A stretch of DNA of 23,327 nt. Origin: a virus. The notes under the pieces are model-generated. The model had not been told where the DNA came from. It did not search any database and saw nothing but the letters and a program-made list of their open reading frames with translations. Numbering within the stretch: position 1 is the stretch's first letter; the number at the start of each line of letters is the position of its first letter. This document shows, piece after piece, positions 2,079-20,922 of this stretch. The stretch is from positions 1 to 23,327 of the IMG/VR virus record IMGVR_UViG_3300041955_001116. One strand, written 5' to 3'. The position numbers and the translations under genes are program-made.

Positions 2079-3884
2079 TCATTCTCCCTTGAAGCGGCCT
2101 CGGCCGCGTACCGGCGGGACCACAGTGCCTTTGAGATCGGTGTTGCGACTGGCAGCCTTCTCTTCGGACCCGGCGTTGGGATCGGCCGACAGGTCCGGCA
2201 CTCCCCGCGCCGCCGGGTCGCTGCCGCCCTTGTTGCTCCCATCATTGATGCCCTGACTCTCGGCAATAAGCTTCAGTCGCTCGGCATGGTCCTTGCGGGC
2301 GGCCAGGTACTCGTCGTCGTCGAAGCCCAAGGCCACGGAGCCCGTCTTCTCGCCGACCAGTCCCGCCTGAGCGGCCAGGATGATCGTTTGCGGGTCGCCG
2401 TTGGTGTAATGGGCGTTGTCGATCTCTTCGTTGACCGCCGCCAGGTCGTCCACGCTGATCTTCCCGCCAAGGAGAGCCTGAACGATCCCCTTCGACAGTT
2501 CGCGTTTGACCTTGCGGCCGGGGACCGAATTCATCAGCTTCGTCAAGTCCTGCGCCTCCTTGATCCGGTCGGCGTCCGTCTTGAGCGAATAGCGATCCGG
2601 GTACTTGATCGTGGCCACTTCGCGCTTCGAGACGACCCGCTCCTCGTAGGCGGCCCAGTGCTCGCAAAGCTGCCGCTCGGCGCTTTCCAACAAGAGGCCG
2701 ATGTAGCTCAGGCCCGCTTCAAGCCCCTGGTTGTCCATCGCCTTCGATTCGGCGGAGGCCCGCACCGCCAGGCTCGACACGGCCAGGTTGACCAGTTCGC
2801 GGATGTCCCCCTTGAGCCGATCCTGCAATTCCAGGCTTGCCCGCAAGGGTTCGGACGGCGGGGCAATGAAGGCGGGTGGATTCATTCCCTTGTCGTAGCT
2901 GCGGCCGTGGGTCGCGCCGACCTGGATGTCCGTTTCGGCCGCGCCCTGGCCGCCTGTGCTGGCCGTACCGTCCGCCGTGGCGGCGTGCTTCAGGTGGGCA
3001 CCCACCGCCCGCAAGTCTTTCTGCTCGATGTAGAAGGGGAAGTTGCTCCGCAGAGCGTAGCTCACGTCACTGGAACCAAGATTGAGAAGAGCGATCTGAT
3101 GACCGCATACGTCTTTGATGAGGCTGTTGCCGATGTCCAGCATCACGAACGGAATGCGGGTCAGTTCCAACTCGACGGCCCCGGCCGGGTTCCCTTGCTG
3201 ATCGACCGGCGAGCCGGTGATGTCATAGAACTGCAAGTTGACCTTGCCGGTGTCCGGGTTGATCCACAGGTAGCGATAGCGTTGCACCTGGACGGTCGGC
3301 AGGAAGTAGCTCTGGTCGAACTGCATCACCGTGTCCCGCAGCAAGACCGCCTGGAACTCGGAAGGGGCTTCAGGCTTCGAGCAGGTCCAACTGAGGATGT
3401 CTTCGATGTCGTAGCGATAGAGGTAAGGCGCGACGTTGCCGGTGTTGGCCAGTGTCGCGGTCGGCGGAACCCAGGGGGCATCGACAAAGATGCCCACCCG
3501 GCCCATGACCAGCAGTTCCGTCAAGACCTTCACCCCGATAAAGGCGTTCATCGTCGAGCCGCGCCGGTCCACGCCGAGATTCAGGCCATTGACGGCGTTC
3601 TGGTACGCTTTGCTGCCGCCCCGCCGGGTGATGTCCCTCATCCGCTGGTAGATGGCGTTGCGGATGTCGTTGATGGCCGCGCCGGCGAACCTGGGAACTG
3701 GCGTCACTTGCAATCGGGCGTTGAACTCCAACTGGTCTTCCCGCCCGGAGAACTTCTCCAGGTAGATTTGGCGGAACTCGTCGCCGCCATCGTAGGTCAA
3801 GCGCCACTTGCGCCAGTCGGTCATCCCGCTCAAGTAGCCGGGATGGCGTGAATCGACCAGATTGATGACCGCACTGTCAGGCAT
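2079..3884 (-). CDS. Phage portal protein (DUF4055-like)
   Basis: 601 aa, ATG at 3882-3884, 12 bp after the terminase stop. Features recalling DUF4055/Gp4-type portals include 'HPGYLSGMTDWRKWRLTYDG' at the N-terminus and 'LLVMGRVGIFVDAPW' near residue 130. 'PYLYRYDIEDILSW' follows near residue 155, and a later 'IPFVMLDIGNSL...LLNLGSSDVSYALRSNFPF' segment precedes a helical stem. The C-terminal ~60 residues are Gly/Ser/Asp-rich and probably disordered. Portals form the dodecameric ring at the capsid vertex through which the terminase pumps DNA. The position immediately downstream of the large terminase is the usual one. The length is slightly larger than many members. I am confident of portal function and less so of the exact family. 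Confidence 0.85.
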   Translation of the reverse strand: MPDSAVINLVDSRHPGYLSGMTDWRKWRLTYDGGDEFRQIYLEKFSGREDQLEFNARLQVTPVPRFAGAAINDIRNAIYQRMRDITRRGGSKAYQNAVNGLNLGVDRRGSTMNAFIGVKVLTELLVMGRVGIFVDAPWVPPTATLANTGNVAPYLYRYDIEDILSWTCSKPEAPSEFQAVLLRDTVMQFDQSYFLPTVQVQRYRYLWINPDTGKVNLQFYDITGSPVDQQGNPAGAVELELTRIPFVMLDIGNSLIKDVCGHQIALLNLGSSDVSYALRSNFPFYIEQKDLRAVGAHLKHAATADGTASTGGQGAAETDIQVGATHGRSYDKGMNPPAFIAPPSEPLRASLELQDRLKGDIRELVNLAVSSLAVRASAESKAMDNQGLEAGLSYIGLLLESAERQLCEHWAAYEERVVSKREVATIKYPDRYSLKTDADRIKEAQDLTKLMNSVPGRKVKRELSKGIVQALLGGKISVDDLAAVNEEIDNAHYTNGDPQTIILAAQAGLVGEKTGSVALGFDDDEYLAARKDHAERLKLIAESQGINDGSNKGGSDPAARGVPDLSADPNAGSEEKAASRNTDLKGTVVPPVRGRGRFKGE

Positions 3885-3896
3885 GACTGGTCTTTC

Positions 3897-5600
3897 TCAC
3901 GTCACTTTTCCGATGTTCTCGCCGCCGGAAGAAATGGGTGCCAACGCCAGGCCGATGTCGGCGTAGCACAGCGAATGGGCAAAGTGGTCGGCCCCCGTGT
4001 TCACGTACTCGGCGGCCAGGTTGCCCATGTCATCCTTCTTATAGGTGCGCACCAGGTTTTTTGTGTGGTCGCGGTAGGTCATCGAAATGTCCCGCGGCAA
4101 TAGGATGCGAGGCGGATTGCTCTTGAAGCGACCGAGAGTACACGAGAGCCAGTTCGTCCTATCCACCGTGGCGAAGGGGGCACCCGTTTCCTCTTCACTC
4201 AAGGTCACTTCCTTGGCAGTCCGCCCTCGCCGGTATCGCGTCAGCCAGACGTAGCCGTGGAACTTCTTGGCGAAGCGACGGGCATCGTTGGTAAACGGGT
4301 CCGCGTCCACCACGCAGGCCAACACCTGCCACTCCCGCATCAACTCATCCAGGTAGCCCCATTCCTCGCCGGAGAACTTGCCGAACCACAGTAGCTTTCC
4401 GATGGCCGCCGCATTGATGTCGGTTCCCGGATGCCGGTCGAAAAGCCATTCGACGACCGAAATGTAGCCCGTCTTTCCCTGGTCCACTCCCATCGTTATC
4501 AGGCGGCTACCGCCGATCTGCGGCCGGGGATCGTTGATCGAGTGCGACTTGATGCAGTTCTCGATCATCTCGTCCGTGACCTGGGCACCCTCGCCGATGA
4601 ACGGCACGCCCAGCTTGCTGCAATGGAACTCCGTGTTCGCCGCCTCGTCGCCCAGCCCGCGATGGTAGGCGATCACCAGTTCGCCCGGCGTCACCGTGGA
4701 CGAGTAAAGCTGATTGATGTAAAAGCCCCGCGACTCCTCGGCCGAGACGTTCGGCTCCGTCGCCTGCCACTTGCCGCCGGCCAGGAACTCCGGCTTTGCC
4801 TCCTGCTCCAGCCTGTGCTTGCACTCGCGGCACTTGAGGAACGATTCCTTGCAGCGCGGGTCGTTGACCGATTCGCCGATGATCTCCACGCAGTCCGGCC
4901 AGACCAACTCTGTCCATCGGCCGCAGTGCGGACACTGAAAACAAAAGTGTTCCTGGGTGCTGGTGAGGTAGAGTTTGTGGATGCCGTACTTGGGCACGGT
5001 CGGCGTCGAGATCGCCAGGATGTGCTTCTCGATCTGCCCCGAGAGCCGCTCCAGCGCCAGCCACACCGAATGCGTGTCCATTTCGTCCATCTCGTCCAAG
5101 ACAAGCTCGGACACCGGGATGGACTTCAGGTTGCTGTCGCCGCGACTCCCGCGAATATAGAGGACGTTCGTGCCGGTCGATTTCAGCCCTACGGTGTTCG
5201 TATCGACAAACAGGTCTTTCAGGTAGGGGCTGAGCTTCAACGCCGTGGCGAAGCGGGCCTTGGAAAAGTCGCCCGCGTTCACCGCCGTGGGCAGCACGTA
5301 GAGCACGTCCCGCTTCAATTGGTCAAGCGTGAAGAAGGCCCGATTGATCCCAGTTTCGGTCACGCCCAACTGGGCCGCTTTCATGGCGACCGTCCAGGCC
5401 GCCTGACTGTCGTGAATCTCGCGGCACCACGGATGCCGCGCGAAACTGTAGGGACCGTTGAAGGGTGCCCCCATCACCCGTCGATGTTCGGCCCACCTGC
5501 TGCAACACGTAAGGATGCGGTCCCGCATCCGTTCCAGCATCGGTTTCAAGACTTCCTTGAACAGCGCCTTGCGCTCGTCGCCTGGGGATCGGCGCATCAT
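3897..5600 (-). CDS. Phage terminase large subunit, GpA-like
   Basis: 567 aa. The ATPase half carries a degenerate Walker A at 'AAQLGVTET' (about 75-83) and a Walker B 'SELVLDEMDEMD' (about 165-176), followed by a 'HILAISTPT' coupling segment. A zinc-binding insert follows (CPHCG and FLKCREC, about 220-265), typical of lambda GpA-type terminases. The nuclease half shows the expected acidic residues in 'MGVDQGK', 'CVVDADPF' and 'GADHFAHS'. It cuts and packages phage DNA at the portal. ATG 5598-5600 overlaps the stop of the thioredoxin lipoprotein gene (TGA 5597-5599), so the two are probably translationally coupled. Length and motif order fit an intact enzyme. Confidence 0.92.
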   Translation of the reverse strand: MMRRSPGDERKALFKEVLKPMLERMRDRILTCCSRWAEHRRVMGAPFNGPYSFARHPWCREIHDSQAAWTVAMKAAQLGVTETGINRAFFTLDQLKRDVLYVLPTAVNAGDFSKARFATALKLSPYLKDLFVDTNTVGLKSTGTNVLYIRGSRGDSNLKSIPVSELVLDEMDEMDTHSVWLALERLSGQIEKHILAISTPTVPKYGIHKLYLTSTQEHFCFQCPHCGRWTELVWPDCVEIIGESVNDPRCKESFLKCRECKHRLEQEAKPEFLAGGKWQATEPNVSAEESRGFYINQLYSSTVTPGELVIAYHRGLGDEAANTEFHCSKLGVPFIGEGAQVTDEMIENCIKSHSINDPRPQIGGSRLITMGVDQGKTGYISVVEWLFDRHPGTDINAAAIGKLLWFGKFSGEEWGYLDELMREWQVLACVVDADPFTNDARRFAKKFHGYVWLTRYRRGRTAKEVTLSEEETGAPFATVDRTNWLSCTLGRFKSNPPRILLPRDISMTYRDHTKNLVRTYKKDDMGNLAAEYVNTGADHFAHSLCYADIGLALAPISSGGENIGKVT

Positions 5601-6010
5601 GGTGTCGCATCATGGTGGTCTATGAGGTTGCCGCCAGGTCCGCGTAGGTCAGTGCTTGCACCCCAGCCGTTGCGGATGATTGCCAGGACTTCATTGGCGT
5701 CATTCGTGCGGAGCGGTTCTCTACCGCACAGATAGAAGATGTACGTCGGCGTGGCCGTGATGTCGTACTTCCGCACCATCTCGGGGTTCTCGTCCACGTC
5801 ATAGACACGCACATCGACGCCGGCCGCCTCGATCTGCGCCACCAGCGGCTTTTGCGCCTTGCACGGGCCGCACCAGGACGCCGTGAAGACGAGCATCACG
5901 GGGCGCTTGCAAGGGTTGCCCTTGGGCGGCGTCAATGGCTGCGGTTGCTCGCAACCGGCAGCCAACACGAGCAGGACCATAGCGGCAAGAGACAATCGTT
6001 GGTGCAGCAT
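5597..6010 (-). CDS. Thioredoxin-fold lipoprotein in phage operon
   Basis: 137 aa from ATG 6008-6010, chosen because CGGAGAAACCTG precedes it; an upstream in-frame extension is Arg/Pro-rich and crosses strong hairpins. Residues 1-20 form a lipoprotein signal ending LAAGC (Cys20), so the mature protein should be membrane-anchored outside the cytoplasm. It has WCGPC at 46-50 and the thioredoxin cis-proline 'TATPTY' near 85-90, so both redox cysteines are present. A Pro-rich linker (about 22-36) separates anchor and domain. It is likely a thiol-disulfide oxidoreductase. Its stop overlaps the terminase start. A thioredoxin lipoprotein coupled to a large terminase is unusual. It may keep envelope-active cysteine enzymes of the same operon reduced, or act as an outer-membrane spanin-like partner; both are inferences. 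Confidence 0.85.
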   Translation of the reverse strand: MLHQRLSLAAMVLLVLAAGCEQPQPLTPPKGNPCKRPVMLVFTASWCGPCKAQKPLVAQIEAAGVDVRVYDVDENPEMVRKYDITATPTYIFYLCGREPLRTNDANEVLAIIRNGWGASTDLRGPGGNLIDHHDATP

Positions 6011-6021
6011 CAGGTTTCTCC

Positions 6022-6101
6022 GATTCTCGGGTGGCTCGCGGAATGGTCCGGGAGCCACCGGAGAATCAGCCCCACGTATGACCGCAGGGCTGATGGTTCT
6101 C
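6022..6101 (-). promoter_or_regulatory. Two mutually exclusive hairpins before the thioredoxin lipoprotein gene
   Basis: In the minus-strand RNA, arm 6048-6067 pairs with 6022-6041 (18 of 20 positions, loop 6042-6047). This ends exactly next to the Shine-Dalgarno (complement of 6015-6021). A second hairpin pairs 6087-6101 with 6061-6072 through 7 + 5 bp and a 3-nt bulge. The segment 6061-6067 is needed by both, so only one can form. This resembles an attenuator or translation switch; a plain processing site or stabilising stem is the alternative. Confidence 0.5.
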
Positions 6102-6116
6102 AAGAGGCTATCGAGG

Positions 6117-6584
6117 TTACGACTTGGCGGGCGGGGCAGAGGGTGCCGGAGCAGAGGGTGCCGACGCGGCGGCTGCGGCAGCAGCAGCAGGTGCCGGCGC
6201 GACGGGTGCCGGAGCAGAGCCCTCAATCTCGGCGATCTTCGCCTTAATCAGGGCCAGGCCCTCGGGAGTCGCCAGCTTCTTCGCCAGGACGTTCTCGTAA
6301 GTCGCTTCCAATTCCTTCTCGATAGCATCGCTGCCGGCCTCCACCAGCTTGGCGAGATCGTGAATCTTCTCCACCATGTCCTGGACATCGCCCACGGCAA
6401 AGTCTTCCAGGAGGGCGGGAATCCACTTGAGGCCAGCGGCCCGCAACTTGCCGGCCAACACCTGGGCGGCGCGCTTCTTCTCCATCAGCTTGGCATTCTG
6501 GCCGAAGAGCCACTTGCCGACTTCACGGCCAACGAGCACGGCGACCACGACTGCGAGAATCCAGATCACGACGATGGGGTTCAT
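6117..6584 (-). CDS. Membrane-anchored helical protein with Ala/Pro tail
   Basis: 155 aa, ATG 6582-6584 with GGAGAAGAAC upstream. Residues about 3-19 are a single hydrophobic transmembrane segment, followed by a charged helix-rich region (about 30-122) likely to form coiled coils. The tail from about 125 on is almost only Ala, Pro and Ser. This is the general build of a phage i-spanin or of small membrane proteins in lysis cassettes. The next gene encodes a lipoprotein, which is the usual partner of an i-spanin. No sequence family was recognised, so the spanin idea rests on topology and context. It could equally be a structural or host-modifying membrane protein. Confidence 0.7.
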   Translation of the reverse strand: MNPIVVIWILAVVVAVLVGREVGKWLFGQNAKLMEKKRAAQVLAGKLRAAGLKWIPALLEDFAVGDVQDMVEKIHDLAKLVEAGSDAIEKELEATYENVLAKKLATPEGLALIKAKIAEIEGSAPAPVAPAPAAAAAAAASAPSAPAPSAPPAKS

Positions 6585-6660
6585 TGTTCTTCTCCGGTGT
6601 GGGATTGGCTGAACGGCAGCCAGGAATAGTCAGGAACGAGACTCGAACGCGAAACGGCGC

Positions 6661-7353
6661 TCACTTCACGGGCGGATTCATCTTCTGGTAGAGGGCCTTG
6701 CCGTAGGTGCAGGCAACGCCGACAACCAGACCGCCAAAGCAGCACAACGGCAGCAACGCCCACGGGACCGGAGCCTCGGCCGGCTGATTGTCGATGTTCG
6801 GTGTGCCGCCGTCGTCAATCGGCTGCGGCTCGGGATCGGGTTGAGGCTGCGGCTGGGGCTGTGGATTCGGGCAGGGGCCAGGGCACCGGCGCTCCATTTC
6901 TCGTCGCCACGGCAGGATAGGTCGAATCCCCTGAGCGGTGTTGACCGCGCCGGCCAGCGCCCCGTTCAGGCCGGCCGCCGTCATGGGCAGGTTCTTTCCG
7001 GCGGCCTCATAGACCACGGTGCCGTCCGCCTTCTGCATCCGCACGGTCGGCAGGCCCTTCACGTTGGGAGCATAGCGCTCCTGATAGATGGCAGTGTCGC
7101 TCGTGACCGGGCAGAAATGCACCTGGTCCTTCAGCTTCTTCAGGCTGGCGTTGGTGTCGAACCAGCCCACGATCTCGTTGTAGCGGGCATCGGTCGCGTT
7201 GCCGACGACGCTCACGTACCACTTGCATTGGTCTTGCGGCAGGTTCACGACCCGCTCCTCGGCCAGGACACCGTTGACGGTATCGCCGAGGCAGGGCACG
7301 ACCGCCGCGAACACGGCGAGCAGGCACAGCACACTCAGGAGCAGCTTGTTCAT
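6661..7353 (-). CDS. Exported thioredoxin-like protein with C-terminal membrane anchor
   Basis: 230 aa from ATG 7351-7353, chosen for AGGAAGAAC just upstream and because the signal peptide begins there (residues 1-23). Residues about 44-140 look like a thioredoxin fold: a 'KWYVSVVGNATD' strand and 'VKGLPTVRMQKADGTVVYEAAG', whose LPT resembles the cis-proline loop. There is no CxxC, so no classical redox activity is expected. A Pro/Gln dipeptide run (about 161-178) forms a rigid spacer, and residues about 198-217 are a transmembrane helix. The protein should therefore lie outside the cytoplasmic membrane, tethered by its C-terminus. It is the second thioredoxin-like gene in the operon. Function unknown. 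Confidence 0.75.
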   Translation of the reverse strand: MNKLLLSVLCLLAVFAAVVPCLGDTVNGVLAEERVVNLPQDQCKWYVSVVGNATDARYNEIVGWFDTNASLKKLKDQVHFCPVTSDTAIYQERYAPNVKGLPTVRMQKADGTVVYEAAGKNLPMTAAGLNGALAGAVNTAQGIRPILPWRREMERRCPGPCPNPQPQPQPQPDPEPQPIDDGGTPNIDNQPAEAPVPWALLPLCCFGGLVVGVACTYGKALYQKMNPPVK

Positions 7354-7385
7354 GTTCTTCCTCTCGTGTTTGTTAAAAGTGACCG

Positions 7386-7937
7386 CTATTGTGGAAGCGG
7401 AGCCGCCGGAGCGTAGATCGGCGTCACGGCCCAACCGTAGCTCGCCTTCCACTCAGCGATCAGCGTCTCTCGCGGAACCCAGATGATTTTCTCGACGCGA
7501 TTGTTGTCCAAGATGCCGGCCCAGGTGGCGTCGAGATGAACCAGGGCGACCATGTGGGCACCGCCCATGATCGTGATGCCGCAGCCCCTTCGCGTCTTGC
7601 AGGTCCATTCCAAAAACCGCACGTCGCCGCTGGTCACGTAGGCGTAACGGACGTTGGCTTGGTCGAACTTTGCCGCCAGGTCTTCCGGGTACTCGCCATC
7701 GCCCTGGGTCCGCCGCCAATTGTCCGCCGTCCTGTAGCGGCCCTGCCAACGCAGCAGGGAGATCATCGTGGCGTGGACGCACGAACCTTGCCCTTGCCTG
7801 CCGATCCAGTTGCTCTGCCGGTCGGCCCGTGGCACGTTGACCGTGGGCATCTCTCGCCTGATCGGCTGGCTCGCCAACGGCGCTTCGCATCCGACGCAAG
7901 CTGCAAGCAGGACGAGAACTGCCAGGAAACGATTCAT
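7386..7937 (-). CDS. Papain/C39-like cysteine peptidase lipoprotein
   Basis: 183 aa from ATG 7935-7937, which forms an ATGA overlap with the preceding gene's stop and marks the start of the lipoprotein signal; the lipidated Cys is 14 (LAAC) or 17. The motif 'GQGSCVHA' (Cys53), 'GGAHMVAL' (His128) and 'ILDNNR' (Asn145) give the Cys-His-Asn order of papain-fold enzymes such as C39 peptidases and NlpC/P60-type hydrolases. The substrate cannot be read; peptidoglycan peptides or bridge proteins are plausible for an envelope-anchored phage-encoded member. It is translationally coupled to a second, differently arranged papain-fold protein upstream. Confidence 0.75.
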   Translation of the reverse strand: MNRFLAVLVLLAACVGCEAPLASQPIRREMPTVNVPRADRQSNWIGRQGQGSCVHATMISLLRWQGRYRTADNWRRTQGDGEYPEDLAAKFDQANVRYAYVTSGDVRFLEWTCKTRRGCGITIMGGAHMVALVHLDATWAGILDNNRVEKIIWVPRETLIAEWKASYGWAVTPIYAPAAPLPQ

Positions 7938-8542
7938 TTGAGCCTCCGCGGGCACAACAAGACCTCGTGGAATCGCAGGTGCCTCACCAGATGGTTGGGA
8001 TTCCAACGGGCCGCGTTGGCGGTTGGCACGATGCCGATGTTCGCATAGGCGGCAGCCACCCATTCACTGCAAAAGATCGAGTGCAGGTTCGCCGGGTGGA
8101 ATAGTGACTCGACCCACGACAGGCCGACGCCGGCCGAACGGAACGCCCCCATTGCGTCGTAGGGCGTGTGGATCGTCGCCATCAGGAAATCAGTCAGCCG
8201 TCTGTCCTCGTAGTCATAGAGCAGCCGATAGAGCGGATAGTGCCACGCTTTGCCGTCGTACACCCGCAAGATGTCGTCCAACAGGTGGGCCTGCGTGCCG
8301 GTGAAATTCTCGTGGCTAATCTCGCAGGGCATGTTCTCCAGCGACGTGCTCTCGAAGATCAACAGCCGGCCGTCCGCCGCATGGGCCATCACGCCAACAT
8401 GGCTGATTCCCCACAGCGGAATCCCGTAGGTGGCAATGTTGATCGCGGCGCTCAGCCAGCTACGTCCGCTGAATCCGATGATGTCGCCGGCCTTGATTTC
8501 GACTTCTCCGGGCACCGCGGCATTTTGCGTCGGTATCAGCAT
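7934..8542 (-). CDS. Permuted papain-fold hydrolase (YiiX/NlpC-like)
   Basis: 202 aa from ATG 8540-8542, preceded by GAGAGAG; a GTG 35 codons upstream (8645-8647) is possible but has no good ribosome site and would bury more of the neighbouring small gene. The motif order 'KAGDIIGFSG', 'GISHVGVM' (His48), 'LLIFEST' (Glu64) and later 'IFCSEWVAAAY' (Cys158) is that of circularly permuted NlpC/P60-type proteins (YiiX/YaeF-like), with His before Cys. Such enzymes hydrolyse cell-wall peptides or other amides. No export signal is evident, so export would need a holin or partner. In phage context an endolysin-like role is plausible but unproven. Confidence 0.75.
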   Translation of the reverse strand: MLIPTQNAAVPGEVEIKAGDIIGFSGRSWLSAAINIATYGIPLWGISHVGVMAHAADGRLLIFESTSLENMPCEISHENFTGTQAHLLDDILRVYDGKAWHYPLYRLLYDYEDRRLTDFLMATIHTPYDAMGAFRSAGVGLSWVESLFHPANLHSIFCSEWVAAAYANIGIVPTANAARWNPNHLVRHLRFHEVLLCPRRLK

Positions 8543-8693
8543 CGCAACTCTCTCGGCTCGATTGAGCCATCGTGTGAATGTTGGCAGGCCGTCGTCTGTC
8601 GCAGCGCTCTTGATCGTCCGCCCAACAGTCCTCACAGCGAGACTCACCGGGATAGATCACCGGCTTGCCGCAGGCGCACCAGACGAGATTCAT
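8460..8693 (-). CDS. Small zinc-ribbon protein
   Basis: 77 aa. ATG 8691-8693 forms an ATGA overlap with the stop of the preceding gene, supporting a real start. The N-terminus contains 'WCACGKPV' and, eleven residues later, 'CEDCW', which together can bind one zinc ion. The C-terminal half is Arg/Ser-rich, loses family character, and overlaps the first ~80 bp of the permuted papain-fold gene in another frame. The overlap is odd; the functional part may be only the first ~30 residues, or the gene may have been extended past its original stop. Confidence 0.55.
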   Translation of the reverse strand: MNLVWCACGKPVIYPGESRCEDCWADDQERCDRRRPANIHTMAQSSRESCDADTDAKCRGARRSRNQGRRHHRIQRT

Positions 8694-10545: not shown

Positions 10546-10697
10546 GCACGCTTCCAGTAGATGGGGTCAAAGAGCCGCGTCAAGAGCCGGCAGGCATAGA
10601 TCGCGGCGTCCCGATTAGGCCGGTAATCCACCCAGTCCGGCGGCGCGGATGCCGGGCACCACAGATAAGGCGGCGGATCGGCCGCTGTCCAAGTCAT
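10542..10697 (-). CDS. 51-aa protein coupled to serine recombinase
   Basis: ATG 10695-10697 overlaps the recombinase stop (TGA 10694-10696) in an ATGA, and the frame is open to TGA 10542-10544. The sequence is rich in Trp, Pro and Tyr ('PPPYLWCPASAPPDWVDY') and ends with a helix and basic 'YWKRA'. The composition is protein-like and the coupling strong, so it is probably translated. It may act with the recombinase, for example as a directionality or control factor, but that is a guess from position. Confidence 0.55.
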   Translation of the reverse strand: MTWTAADPPPYLWCPASAPPDWVDYRPNRDAAIYACRLLTRLFDPIYWKRA

Positions 10698-11461
10698 GCC
10701 GAGGGCCTGGGCGGATGGCCAAGGAATCCCTTGCCGAGATAGCGTTCGATCAGTTGTTGGACGATGCCCAGCGAAAACGGGCGCTTCCGCTCACGGGTCG
10801 TGAAGCCTTGGCCGTTGAGCCAATCGACGATCTGTTGCAGCGTCTCGCCCGCCTCGCGGCGGCGCTTGATCTCCGGCACCAGAAATTGGCAGTAATGCCG
10901 CCGCGCCTCCTCCGCCCGAGCGGCCCGTGCTGCCGGCAGACCCTTGGCTTGTCCCCGCTTGCGGGCCTCGGCCCGCTTCGGCTCGTCCCAAAACCCTGGC
11001 CGGTTCGAGCCGAGCAAAGTGCCACGGGCCTTGGCGCTCTGCAAGGCGGCCTTCGTTCGAGCGGCGATCTGTTCCACCTCATGCTGCGCGATCAGCGCCA
11101 GGAAGCCGATAGTCAACGGAGTGGCATGTTCGTTATCGCAGCAGACAAAGGGCAAGCCCGATTTCTGCAAAGCCAGGGTGAAGGCAGCGTTGCGGGCCAA
11201 TCGGTCCAGCTTGGCCACGACCAGCGTGGCGTTGGACAACTGGGCGTGATGGATCGCTGCGTGCAGTTTGGGGCGGTCGGCCATCTTCCCCGTTTCGACT
11301 TCGACGAACTCCGCGACGATCGGGCCGTTGTTGCGCCCGGCCAGGGCGTTCACGTCACGTTGTTGCGCCTCCAGTCCCAAGCCGCTCTCTCCCTGCCGCC
11401 TGGTGCTCACACGGTAGTACGCAACGTATTTCTTCGGGGGTTCAATCAAGGTGCTCATCAT
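10694..11461 (-). CDS. Small serine recombinase, catalytically complete
   Basis: 255 aa; starts ATG 11459-11461, or the next codon ATG 11456-11458, with CCGGAGACT before them. The resolvase/invertase catalytic domain shows 'YYRVSTRRQGESGLGL' with the nucleophile Ser19. 'VVAKLDRLARN' follows at about 81-91, carrying the conserved Asp86, Arg87 and Arg90. A linker helix and a 'recombinase' domain (about 165-235, 'LVPEIKRRREAGETLQQIVDWLNGQGFTT') then contact DNA. The build is short compared with large phage integrases, as in many planctomycete copies. It could integrate the element or invert DNA. It lies in an operon with the SprT-like gene upstream and the 51-aa gene downstream. Confidence 0.9.
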   Translation of the reverse strand: MMSTLIEPPKKYVAYYRVSTRRQGESGLGLEAQQRDVNALAGRNNGPIVAEFVEVETGKMADRPKLHAAIHHAQLSNATLVVAKLDRLARNAAFTLALQKSGLPFVCCDNEHATPLTIGFLALIAQHEVEQIAARTKAALQSAKARGTLLGSNRPGFWDEPKRAEARKRGQAKGLPAARAARAEEARRHYCQFLVPEIKRRREAGETLQQIVDWLNGQGFTTRERKRPFSLGIVQQLIERYLGKGFLGHPPRPSA

Positions 11462-12900: not shown

Positions 12901-15900
12901 CTATGGCGGGGGCACATCGCGTAATTCAATTGTGCCGTCGTCATTTGCGGTCGCTATGCGTTGGCCGTCAGCCGAGAAAGCCAGTCTCAAGACAGCGGCC
13001 GAAGGCGAAAATGCTAACAGCGTTTTTCCGGTAAGTGTCTCATGGACGCGAACGATAGAGGAGTATTGCGCGTACCAAGACCACTCGTCGATGCCGGGCC
13101 AATCGTCCGGGCTACGCGATTTCGTTATCACAGCGGCGTAGCGAGTGCCATCGGCGCTGAAGGCGATGCTGCTCAGGTTGTGGCGAGGGAAGTCCCTTGC
13201 CGCAACCAGCTTCAGTGTTTGCCGGTCGAAAATGTGCGAGCCAATGTGGAAATACTTGCCGCCGGGAACCAACCCGAAGTCCCCATTGGGCTGGCGATCT
13301 ATCTTCGCCTCGTCTGAGTTCCGCGATGCCAACGTAGCCGTATCAATCCATTCGCCTTTCAGAGGCCCCCAGGTTCCTTTGCCCGCACCGTGAATGACAA
13401 AGAGGTGCCTTCCATCCTCCGTCAACTCCCCTCGGCCGTTCAACAGCGAATTCTGCGAGTCGATGTCGATTGGTCCGTCCTTAAGGACCTGGCCGGTTCG
13501 ATAGTTGAAACGCCACCAGTGGTCTCGTGCGCCGGTGCCGCTCTCGATAAAGTAACCTGTACACAAAGCCTCTTGATCGCCTAGCCAGTACACCCGTCTG
13601 ACACCGGCCGCCTTGTGCTCAGTTATTGCGAAGTGATCCCAAGTCACGGGCAACTTCACTTCACACAGCGCCTTTCCGGTATCCACGTCGATAACCTGAA
13701 TGGGCTCCTTCGGATCGCGGGTAAGCGGACAGAGAACATAACGGCCATCCGTAGGACGAACACTGGCCGCAAGCCGGCCGGCCGGCAATGGATTTCGCCG
13801 GAGCATCTTCAAGGTAGCAGCATCCCACGTACAAACAGTGTCCTCGCCGATGCTCCGCAGTGCTTTGCCATCGGGAAGAAATCGCAGATCAATCGGGTAA
13901 TGGCCGTGCCCTTCATAGGGCATCACCTCTTCACCGGTCTCCGCGCGGAACAATCGCGGTGTCGGGCGTCTTCCCTGACTTGCTACAAGCCACTTCCCAT
14001 CGGGCGAATAGACGAGCGCCGAAACGCGCTCATCACGCCGACTGTGACAGGGAAAATGAAACTCTCGTATCGTTTTCAAGTCAGGCAAACTATAGATTCC
14101 CAGTCGCACATCGCCAGATGCGATTGCGGCTTGCCCGCCGTCGGGAGAAACCGCCAACTTTAGGGTATTGTCCCACACGCTAGGAAACCGAGTCTCGGCC
14201 GCCACTTGGCCGCCAGCGGTCGCGCGCAATACCTGGAGTTGTACGAGGTGCTCCGCAGAGTACTTCTTGCTGGCCGTCACGCGATACTTTCCATCGGGCG
14301 TCAGCAGTGACTCTGTTGTGTGGTATCGCGGGTCTGCGACCTTCTTTCCAGGCCCTCCGGGCTGCTCGACCACAACCCCGGTGCGCCACTCGAAGCGGTG
14401 CTCGGTCAGATCGTTGCCGTCCGCCGAGGTAGCGGAAAGGAACTTGCCGTCAGGCGAAAAGCTAAGCCGACAGATTTGCCCTTCCTGCTCAATCGCGTGA
14501 AGGCACGTCCAATCGTCCGTATTCCAGATGCGAATATCGCCCCATTCGCCTCCGGTGGCCAGGAACTTGCCGTCATCAGTAAAGGCGACGGACAGGGCTC
14601 CGCGTGGGTGATAGATTCGGGGCTGGGAACGCAGAGACTTGGTCTGCCCCCGCTGTGCCAGGGCGACCAGTTCGAGGTTGTCTTCCACGTGGGCCGAATC
14701 CAACGCCAGTTGCAACTCGGCCTTCCAATGCCCCTTTGCTACGTCGCGCAGCTTCATAAGCCGATTGCCGTACCGCTCAAGCAGAAGTTGTTCGTCGATG
14801 GCAACTGCCAGCCAGGCCAGCGCATGGTTTACGGAATCGTCGTCGGCCTCGTTTCGATACCTCGATTCCAACGGGTGTTTCGGGGCAGGTGGTTCTGCTG
14901 GTTGCGACTTCACATAGTCTAACTCTTTTTCGAGCAGCCGGGACAAGGGGCCTCCAGACGAACCGCCGCCCAGCCGCCCGAGAAGTCGAATGAGATTGCG
15001 CAGTTTGCGAAACTCGCCCCACGCCGGCTCAGCCTGACGGAGCATTTCCCGTTCGATGGCTGCCGCAAGCTCCTCTCGCGCTGCGTCCTTCTGGCGTGTT
15101 ATCGCTCGAACCGCAAGGTTCACGCAGCCCATTCTCTCCGAACCGAGAAAGTCGATTGCTTCTTCCACGCTGCCGCGAAAGACCACCTCACGGCCTCGCA
15201 ACCTCTTGCCTCGCTCTACGGTATCGACTATCGGGTAAAGGTCACGACGTTTCAGGGCGGCTGCCACGTCGGCCTCGCACGCAATCGGCAGGCGTGTATC
15301 AACGCGATAGACCCGTTTATGCAAGAAGTCCTTCTCAATGCGAAGGAAGTACAACATGGGCTCGGGGCGAAGCTCAGCAACCTTACCCGAGAATCTGATA
15401 TGGTCAATTATCTCCATCGTGCTCTTCTCGCCCGCCTTCGGTTCTGAACCGCGCAGCAGGCGCACGACCTCGATCGTATGCTTGTGGTCGTCGGCAGCCT
15501 CTATGGCAGTCTCCTTGCCGACGAAAATGGAGTCGGCCGCCAGCGTGTGGTAATCAAGCCGTGCCGCCGACATCGCCATTTGCGATTTCTCTTCCTTAAC
15601 ATCGACGTGGTACTTCATGTCGTAATCTGTCGGGCCGCCATACGCTTGTGGAACCAGCGCGAAGATTTGCCGTTCGGGTCCCGGAATGTAGAAGTACTCG
15701 TGCAAATGCAGGGTCTTCTCAGGTGTGCCGCCGTACAGAACCTTCTCCACCTTCAGTTCATAGACCAATTCGCGCGGTTCATTTTTCTCGGCGGGACGTT
15801 TCGCCGTGCCAAGCACGACAAGCTTGATCGGGCCAAGATTATGCTCGGGAGGGCTGTTAATCAGGCGTTGTGACTCATCCACTTCGAGGGCCGGACAAGT

Positions 15901-16026
15901 AACGCGCACCTGCTCGGACTCTTGAGCCGGCGGACTTTCAGCCGACAAGGCCGCCGTGAGGGCATGGCCGGCCACACTGACGAGCACCACCGCCGACGCG
16001 GAGGCCACCAAATAGCGGGATAGCAT
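12901..16026 (-). CDS. Large exported WD40 beta-propeller protein
   Basis: 1041 aa, ATG 16024-16026 with GGGGAA upstream. Residues about 1-29 are a signal peptide ending near 'LTAALSAES'. Residues about 40-250 form a strand-rich domain of unknown type ('IKLVVLGTAK', 'YELKVEKVLYGGTPEKTLHLHEY'). Residues about 270-470 are mostly helical. From about 475 on, WD40-like blades recur, marked by 'VAFTDDGKFLATGG', 'LSFSPDGKFLSATS' and 'LVYSPDGKWLVASQ'. The last blade is 'LAFSADGQRIATANDDGTIELRD' at the C-terminus. Such long secreted propellers are common in planctomycetes and likely bind proteins or surfaces. No catalytic site seen. It sits between mobile genes and may be cargo. Confidence 0.85.
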   Translation of the reverse strand: MLSRYLVASASAVVLVSVAGHALTAALSAESPPAQESEQVRVTCPALEVDESQRLINSPPEHNLGPIKLVVLGTAKRPAEKNEPRELVYELKVEKVLYGGTPEKTLHLHEYFYIPGPERQIFALVPQAYGGPTDYDMKYHVDVKEEKSQMAMSAARLDYHTLAADSIFVGKETAIEAADDHKHTIEVVRLLRGSEPKAGEKSTMEIIDHIRFSGKVAELRPEPMLYFLRIEKDFLHKRVYRVDTRLPIACEADVAAALKRRDLYPIVDTVERGKRLRGREVVFRGSVEEAIDFLGSERMGCVNLAVRAITRQKDAAREELAAAIEREMLRQAEPAWGEFRKLRNLIRLLGRLGGGSSGGPLSRLLEKELDYVKSQPAEPPAPKHPLESRYRNEADDDSVNHALAWLAVAIDEQLLLERYGNRLMKLRDVAKGHWKAELQLALDSAHVEDNLELVALAQRGQTKSLRSQPRIYHPRGALSVAFTDDGKFLATGGEWGDIRIWNTDDWTCLHAIEQEGQICRLSFSPDGKFLSATSADGNDLTEHRFEWRTGVVVEQPGGPGKKVADPRYHTTESLLTPDGKYRVTASKKYSAEHLVQLQVLRATAGGQVAAETRFPSVWDNTLKLAVSPDGGQAAIASGDVRLGIYSLPDLKTIREFHFPCHSRRDERVSALVYSPDGKWLVASQGRRPTPRLFRAETGEEVMPYEGHGHYPIDLRFLPDGKALRSIGEDTVCTWDAATLKMLRRNPLPAGRLAASVRPTDGRYVLCPLTRDPKEPIQVIDVDTGKALCEVKLPVTWDHFAITEHKAAGVRRVYWLGDQEALCTGYFIESGTGARDHWWRFNYRTGQVLKDGPIDIDSQNSLLNGRGELTEDGRHLFVIHGAGKGTWGPLKGEWIDTATLASRNSDEAKIDRQPNGDFGLVPGGKYFHIGSHIFDRQTLKLVAARDFPRHNLSSIAFSADGTRYAAVITKSRSPDDWPGIDEWSWYAQYSSIVRVHETLTGKTLLAFSPSAAVLRLAFSADGQRIATANDDGTIELRDVPPP

Positions 16027-16910: not shown

Positions 16911-17624
16911 TCATGCCGTGACTTTCACCTTGCGGGTGTTGTTGCCGAGGAAGTCGTCGCCCAGGTAGCGTTTGACGATTCGCCACACCGCCACGTCCGT
17001 GAACGGCTTGCCGGCCGTCGTCAGGTGGTCGGTCTCGTTGAGCCACTGGGCGATCTCGGCCATCGTTTCGCCGCGCTCGCGGCGGGCCTTGATCTCCGGC
17101 ATGAGGAATTGATACGCCTCCGCGGCGCGCTGTTTCCGCTTGGCGATGGACCCCGCCACGGCCTGCCTCCAGCCACGCTTGTCCTCTCGCCCTTTCCAGT
17201 GGCCCTCTCGCTGGGAGCCGAGCTTGACTCCCTTGGCCTTGAGGGCAGCCATCGCGTCACGGGTCCGCTGGCGGGCTTGCTGCGATTCGTCCTGGGCCAG
17301 ATTGGCGAGGATATGGATGGTCCGCTCATTGGCGTTGGGCATGTCGCAGCAAACAAAGTTGACTCCGCTCCGTTGCAAGGCTACAGTAAAGGCCACGCTG
17401 CGGGAGAGCCGACCGATGTCGGCGATCACGAGCACCGCCCCATGTTTAAGGGCCGCCTCGATGGCTTTGTGCAGAACGGGCCAACCTTCCTCCTTGCCGT
17501 TCGTCTCCACGAAGCTGGCGACGATCTTCCCTGGGTTCAACTCGGCGTACTGGCGGACGGCAGCCTCCTGGGTGGCCCGGTCGAGTCGCTTCCCCAGGCG
17601 AACGTAGGAAATGTACTTTGACAC
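16911..17624 (-). CDS. Serine recombinase homologue without the catalytic serine
   Basis: 237 aa using GTG 17622-17624, chosen for the GGAGAATCATTA leader and because family homology starts there. It aligns along its whole length with the recombinase at 10694-11461 ('GVNFVCCD', 'LMPEIKARRERGETMAEIAQWLN', 'YLGDDFLGN'). The nucleophile motif Y-x-R-V-S-T reads YVRLGK, so Ser becomes Gly11. The 'KLDRLAR' motif reads 'DIGRLSR', so the conserved Asp becomes Gly71. Arg9, Arg72 and Arg75 remain. It should not cut DNA. It may have become a DNA-binding regulator, or be drifting toward loss, although its frame is intact. Confidence 0.85.
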   Translation of the reverse strand: MSKYISYVRLGKRLDRATQEAAVRQYAELNPGKIVASFVETNGKEEGWPVLHKAIEAALKHGAVLVIADIGRLSRSVAFTVALQRSGVNFVCCDMPNANERTIHILANLAQDESQQARQRTRDAMAALKAKGVKLGSQREGHWKGREDKRGWRQAVAGSIAKRKQRAAEAYQFLMPEIKARRERGETMAEIAQWLNETDHLTTAGKPFTDVAVWRIVKRYLGDDFLGNNTRKVKVTA

Positions 17625-20259: not shown

Positions 20260-20922
20260 ATGAAAGACACTCACCACACTCAAAAGACCTACCTTGCGCT
20301 CGGCGACTCGATGTCGATTGATGAGTACACTGGCGTCCGGGGCGGCGGGGCCGTGGCCCAGTTCTACCGCCGGCTCCAAGGCCGCCAGGACGGCCCCTGG
20401 CGGTTGATCGACCGCACCACGGACGGCCACCGCATGGCCGACATCGACTTCCGAGGGCCGGCCGACTTGATTACCATGACCATTGGCGGCAACGACCTGG
20501 TGCAGCACATCGCCGACGACCCGGCCGAGTTCGTTCCCCTCTTTGACGACGCCTACCGCGACCTGGCGGCGGCCATCCGCAAGGCCCACCCGCAGGCCAC
20601 CATCATCGTCGGCAACGTCTACCAGCCCCAGGGCGGCCTCCCCAGGCCCCTCCGCGCCGCCCTGGACAAGTGCAACTGGGCCATCGCCCGTTGGGCCCAT
20701 GTCGAGGGCTTCCACCTGGCGGACATCCACGGGGCCTTCCTGGGGCATGAGGCGGACTATTTGTGCCTGGGGATCGAGCCCTCGCTGGCCGGCGCTACGG
20801 TAATCGCCGGACTGTTCGAGAAGGCTTGGGCGACCCATGACCTGCCGGAGATGGTCCGAAAAGCAATGGCAATCCAACGATTAGGGGGGGAAACTGTTGC
20901 AGAGCGGGGAGGGAACCCATAA
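20260..20922 (+). CDS. SGNH/GDSL-like hydrolase
   Basis: 220 aa from ATG 20260-20262; the GAGG at 20247-20250 is well placed for it, while an upstream ATG (20251) is too close. It shows 'LALGDSMSID' (block I, Ser17), 'LITMTIGGND' (block III, Asn78) and 'ATIIVGNVYQP', giving the SGNH alpha/beta hydrolase layout. The block V Asp-x-x-His is replaced by 'LGIEPSLAGA'. I recall this Glu-Pro form from one subfamily of bacterial GDSL proteins, so it may still be active with a different dyad. There is no signal peptide. Substrate unknown; such enzymes hydrolyse esters of sugars or lipids. Confidence 0.75.
   Translation: MKDTHHTQKTYLALGDSMSIDEYTGVRGGGAVAQFYRRLQGRQDGPWRLIDRTTDGHRMADIDFRGPADLITMTIGGNDLVQHIADDPAEFVPLFDDAYRDLAAAIRKAHPQATIIVGNVYQPQGGLPRPLRAALDKCNWAIARWAHVEGFHLADIHGAFLGHEADYLCLGIEPSLAGATVIAGLFEKAWATHDLPEMVRKAMAIQRLGGETVAERGGNP

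Follow-up and report, generated by a model that had tools for sequence, protein, structure and literature searches.

A conserved gene block between the terminase genes of planctomycete phages as a candidate late lysis module

The window analysed here, a complete IMG/VR virus record of 23,327 bases, carries a block of five genes (PP, C39, EM, Hel and Trx; minus strand, 8542-5597) between a small-terminase-like gene (TerS-like) and the large terminase gene (TerL), as the initial annotation had described. We consider this block to be probably, though by no means certainly, a late envelope-breaching (lysis) module of planctomycete phages. Lysis is the best explanation because the block is obligatory in one phage group, common to unrelated phages of a single phylum and situated among late genes, and because it combines envelope proteins with two intact cysteine enzymes; we infer late expression from the position of the genes among structural genes. 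We found no description in the literature of how phages escape planctomycetes, a topic that appears little studied, and the block is absent from the annotated phage collection searched, so that it may represent an undescribed lysis route.

Gene layout and conservation of the block

The genes and their borders are listed in Table 1. The TerS-like gene keeps its position in relatives (37-49% identity), with weak PHROG matches only. Conservation of the zinc-ribbon-like ORF in relatives is limited to its first ~30 residues (CxC...CxxC), and a longer GTG start for PP (8647, giving a 237-aa ORF) was rejected because it is not conserved, the ATG at 8542 being preferred. Consecutive genes had been described as coupled by ATGA overlaps; these occur at PP/C39 and Trx/TerL, and between the TerS-like gene and the zinc-ribbon ORF, but at no other junction, the inner ones having gaps of 32 (C39/EM), 76 (EM/Hel) and 106 bases (Hel/Trx). 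TerL shares about 25-27% identity at most with annotated phages, which places the window in a phage group without close cultured relatives; the portal-like gene is ~63-67% identical to the post-TerL gene of its relatives.

Table 1. The gene block and its surroundings in the window
Feature	Position	Strand	Remarks
TerS-like gene, 184 aa	8690..9244	-	upstream border of module; small-terminase role suggested by position
Small zinc-ribbon-like ORF	8460..8693	-	overlaps start of PP; ATGA overlap with TerS
PP, permuted NlpC/P60 (YiiX/C92-like, predicted), 202 aa, without signal peptide	7934..8542	-	AlphaFold model and fold matches
C39, papain-fold C39-type peptidase-like lipoprotein, 183 aa, predicted exported	7386..7937	-	model and lipobox
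EM, predicted exported, Pro-rich linker, C-terminal TM anchor, 230 aa	6661..7353	-	hydropathy
Hel, single N-terminal TM helix and helical domain, predicted N-out/C-in, 155 aa	6117..6584	-	
Trx, CGPC thioredoxin lipoprotein, 137 aa	5597..6010	-	PF00085; ATGA overlap with TerL
TerL, large terminase, GpA type	3897..5600	-	downstream border; phrog_675 E 7e-87, PF05876 E 1e-30
Portal-like gene after TerL (context)	2079..3884	-	role suggested by position and size

Scans seeded with PP returned 12 and 32 IMG/VR loci, which carry the identical order TerS-PP-C39-EM-Hel-Trx-TerL. Since seeding with PP is circular, the scan was repeated with TerL as the seed, keeping the best 80 of 265 relatives, some loci being near-duplicates. 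All five genes are present in this order in 39/39 viral contigs that matched TerL and extend at least 4 kb upstream of it. The genes had been taken for an inserted cassette, a reading that we reject, since every testable relative has the block and this gene arrangement is the norm in the phage group. Pairwise dN/dS between the window and four relatives is 0.06-0.34 for every gene which, together with invariant catalytic residues (below), indicates that these are not chance reading frames; the five genes are real and under purifying selection. One scan of genome contigs seeded with PP only found zero relatives, and comparison of PP, C39 (three versions) and EM with 50,697 annotated phage records gave nothing significant, the best match of PP having an E value of 0.2.

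Many relatives have two small genes, X90 and X170, after Trx and before TerL (at about 10040-10760 in L003 and at equivalent positions in others), X170 having an Ala/Pro-rich tail; the window is without both. A 103-kb viral contig (G017; L064-L069) contains the TerS-module-TerL block twice in opposite orientation (3.5-8.9 kb and 72.1-77.8 kb), beside a 578-aa serine recombinase, representing either adjacent prophages or an assembly chimera. Elsewhere in the window (12901-16026, minus strand), a 1041-aa protein with WD40-like repeats, recognised by eye, is predicted to be exported; its gene is absent from relatives G003, G008 and G010, and G017 carries other genes in about that position, a variable presence that suggests a cargo site. 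The window further encodes two serine recombinases that are related to each other (43% identical; about 240-255 aa; 10694-11458 and 16911-17624, minus strand) and are retained together as a pair in relatives, besides a large integrase located elsewhere. An SGNH-hydrolase-like ORF (20260-20922, plus strand; GDS motif by eye) had no counterpart seen in annotated relatives, and a trypsin-like protease, predicted to be exported, is present in some relatives (G010 33017-33952; G017 44380-45330) and was not found in the window.

Predicted folds and topologies

PP had been described as a permuted papain-fold protein, and its AlphaFold model (pLDDT 71) agrees. The best matches are YiiX (2if6) and BcPPNE (3kw0), at Z 12.7 with 22% identity over ~150 residues (Foldseek E 9e-5), followed by TseH (6v98) at Z 8.8 and lower values. 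Residues H48, E64, Y128 and C158 are invariant in 26/26 homologues and lie in permuted order, with His early and Cys late, plus the Glu and Tyr of the active site; the numbering is near-identical to that of the BcPPNE active site, H49/E64/Y127/C154 (PMC3142127). By modelled fold and active-site residues, PP is a YiiX-type permuted NlpC/P60 enzyme. It differs from the YaeF/YiiX enzymes (MEROPS C92) in being a phage late gene without a signal peptide and in scoring below threshold against Pfam PF05708 (C92; 13 bits vs a gathering cut-off of 27), which 5/10 members match with a best E of 0.014. Sequence searches of the PDB with PP, C39 and EM returned nothing significant beyond low-complexity matches.

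This family is considered to target lipid or acyl groups and not murein (PMC3142127, PMC12994826). The pocket of YiiX holds a fatty acid (PMC3142127), and lipoprotein N-acylation requires LnsA, which is related to the permuted group (PMC7387801). By analogy, the target of PP may be lipids rather than murein. The T6SS effectors Tox-Act1 and TseH belong to the same permuted NlpC/P60 fold class and are envelope-directed, as PP putatively is; they differ in being secreted effectors, with phospholipase activity reported for Tox-Act1 (PMC12994826).

The description of C39 as a papain/C39-like lipoprotein is likewise backed by its model (pLDDT 78), which resembles C39 peptidases (ComA/PCAT1 domains, 3erv and the pseudomurein endoisopeptidase PeiR; Z about 9-11) in papain-type fold and Cys-His-Asp order; a sequence-level family match was not found in Pfam and PDB searches. 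H128, D144 and N146 are present in 53/53 homologues and C53 in the 51/51 that could be aligned. A lipobox (LAACVGC) is visible by eye, and 5/10 relatives match LPAM_1. On this modelling, C39 is an exported C39-type papain-fold protein with an intact Cys/His/Asp set. Domains of the ComA/PCAT1 type are fused to an ABC transporter and act as double-Gly leader peptidases, whereas C39 is a stand-alone lipoprotein, predicted to be exported. A role for C113/C119 as a caged-cysteine redox switch was dropped, neither cysteine being kept in distant homologues.

EM had been called an exported, thioredoxin-like, tail-anchored protein. Its signal peptide and C-terminal TM anchor stand, by hydropathy, but its likeness to thioredoxin does not: CxxC is absent and hhalign against thioredoxins, using a small template alignment, gave a probability of 0.2% compared with 98.5% for Trx as the positive control. 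We therefore reject EM as a thioredoxin, although it may still be remotely related in fold; zero relatives were found in Pfam, PHROG or PDB. Hel, with one N-terminal TM helix, is a single-pass helical membrane protein as proposed; K/R residues are more frequent just after the TM helix than before it in 30/30 homologue sequences, from which an N-out/C-in topology is predicted. An i-spanin (N-in, with a periplasmic coiled coil) would have the opposite topology, and this identity for Hel was rejected. Trx matches PF00085 with 48.5 bits (cut-off 23.5), has a lipobox, and retains CxxC in 32/32 tabulated family members and P88 (cis-Pro) in 10/10; judged by sequence it is, as initially annotated, a genuine CxxC (CGPC) thioredoxin lipoprotein.

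Late lipoproteins and membrane proteins could instead alter the envelope and so keep other phages or released virions from infecting again. Exclusion systems typically include such proteins, of which the block has two of each kind, and the phages look temperate, having a large serine recombinase and prophage contexts. We regard such superinfection exclusion or surface remodelling as unlikely, because genes of this sort are usually accessory and variable, yet this block is in all of the testable relatives, and because it sits inside late structural operons.

The C39-EM(-Hel) core in other prophages and the host wall

Searches of Planctomycetota genomes seeded with C39 and with EM show that a C39-EM(-Hel) core recurs in late regions of prophages with unrelated packaging types. 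EM matched 30/397 Planctomycetia genomes; C39 lies directly upstream in 28/30 fetched loci (the two others being one short-stretch match and one weak Pro-rich match), and Hel was detected in about 15. Terminases around the core are of GpA type, phrog_38 type (L283, L288) or, with a portal, HK97-type phrog_9 (L287), and in G400 the core comes last among the late genes. In L283 the neighbouring portal, capsid/protease and tape-measure genes are of one type; in prophages like it the product of the third gene, 92-113 aa long, shares the N-out single-TM layout of Hel, similarity to Hel being undetected. PP precedes C39 in G703, L296, L299, L300 and further IMG/VR loci, and Trx was undetected in most other lineages. 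Recurrence of the gene order in other planctomycete prophages, which the initial annotation had suggested looking for, is thus found, and occurrence in non-phage loci, which it had held would speak against a phage function, is not: every genomic occurrence inspected sits among phage genes.

Because the block adjoins the terminase in several lineages, and always falls within the late block, its products could alternatively serve in assembling virions or packaging DNA, with virion or connector proteins processed by C39 and PP, and Trx and EM helping cysteine-containing virion proteins to fold. This is very unlikely, given that predicted export signals and TM anchors put four of the five products in the envelope, that the block travels between head modules of unrelated kinds and can close the late genes as in G400, and that prophages of the L283 type already encode a head maturation protease.

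When bacterial genomes were scanned with TerL as the seed, the block turned up complete in the Planctomycetota MAG MB_PLM_2, on a contig of 444 kb whose phage genes extend to about 92 kb and then give way to chromosomal-type genes; a second relative of TerL is on a contig binned as Anaerolinea that begins just before TerL, so that planctomycetes are the probable, though perhaps not the sole, hosts. MB_PLM_2 has 19 YTV-domain matches vs 0 in 14 control genomes. Published accounts portray YTV proteins as rich in cysteine and the wall as a disulfide-containing protein sacculus (PMC8567305, PMC2754498), and the YTV matches give MB_PLM_2 the type of cysteine-rich wall protein known from Planctomycetales (PMC8567305). 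With 6 Mur-ligase matches and one PBP transpeptidase, MB_PLM_2 may also make murein; after the Mur-ligase matches, a murein-free host was dropped as a firm premise.

Envelope breach and host cell lysis

The initial annotation proposed a lysis cassette built from unusual parts, against which it would have set a canonical holin-endolysin-spanin set elsewhere in the prophage. Standard endolysin families were not found in the relatives scanned: Amidase_2, Phage_lysozyme, Amidase_3 and M15_3 are each absent from 10 relatives, the largest reaching 103 kb; most ORFs in G010 (84 kb) and G017, when scanned with Pfam, gave zero lysis families; and two unrelated module-bearing prophages, G703 and G408, gave zero endolysins among the best 25 of 52 Pfam families, these tests covering known families on possibly incomplete contigs, with some ORFs straddling fetch borders and genes called by a simple model. 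A holin-like single-TM protein of 76-100 aa is encoded after the capsid gene, outside the block, in the window's lineage, and inside the block in G703 and L279; comparison of the small N-out single-TM proteins with holin families gave nothing significant.

Phage T7 has the order holin (17.5), TerS (18), spanins (18.5/18.7), TerL (19). The likeness lies in the placing of envelope-directed genes between small and large terminase genes; the module differs in comprising five other protein families without spanin, amidase or holin homology, and Hel is predicted to be C-in, opposite to an i-spanin. The proposal of a lysis cassette is thus partly supported, by the recurring order, the phage contexts, the failure to find a canonical endolysin and, in two lineages, a holin-like gene within the block, but not in its details: EM gave no sign of thioredoxin likeness, the predicted topology of Hel is opposite to that of an i-spanin, and the family of PP is linked to lipid or acyl substrates.

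Several observations stand against a lysis module: the holin-like protein matches no holin family significantly and is outside the block in the window's own lineage, homologues of PP are implicated in lipid rather than wall chemistry, the host MAG may have murein, and one phage of a cultured planctomycete, a chronic and non-lytic one, is reported to leave the cell without lysis (PMC10945688). The last might suggest that the module lets particles through the planctomycete envelope without cell death. We consider chronic release of this kind highly improbable, as tailed dsDNA phages normally lyse and two hydrolase-type enzymes fit breakage better.

If the block is a lysis module, the small N-out single-TM proteins (Hel and the separate 76-100 aa holin-like protein) would disturb the inner membrane. 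PP, without a signal peptide, would be released or membrane-active, working on acyl- or amide-linked lipids, on lipoproteins or on peptides of the wall; the exported lipoprotein C39 would cleave a protein or peptide layer of the envelope; and EM would display a domain in the periplasm while anchored in the inner membrane. For the lineage of the window, Trx could reduce thiols, so as to maintain the C39 nucleophile in its active state or else to open disulfides of the cysteine-rich wall. A more specific version, that lysis is adapted to a disulfide-bonded, cysteine-rich protein wall, is attractive given Trx and the YTV proteins; it is still an inference, and we hold it as a tentative and rather doubtful proposition. 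Here the lipoprotein reductase would open disulfides, the lipoprotein C39 protease would cut wall protein and the YiiX-type enzyme would attack lipids or lipoproteins, with no murein endolysin of a known family, the C39-EM-Hel core being common to unrelated planctomycete phages.

Planctomycete walls differ from those of model bacteria, and a mobile late module, strictly conserved and with its enzymes intact, supplies named candidate genes. If the module lyses, then C39 and YiiX-type enzymes can make up a lysis system in place of known murein hydrolases, and the module would offer new enzymes for opening planctomycete cells.
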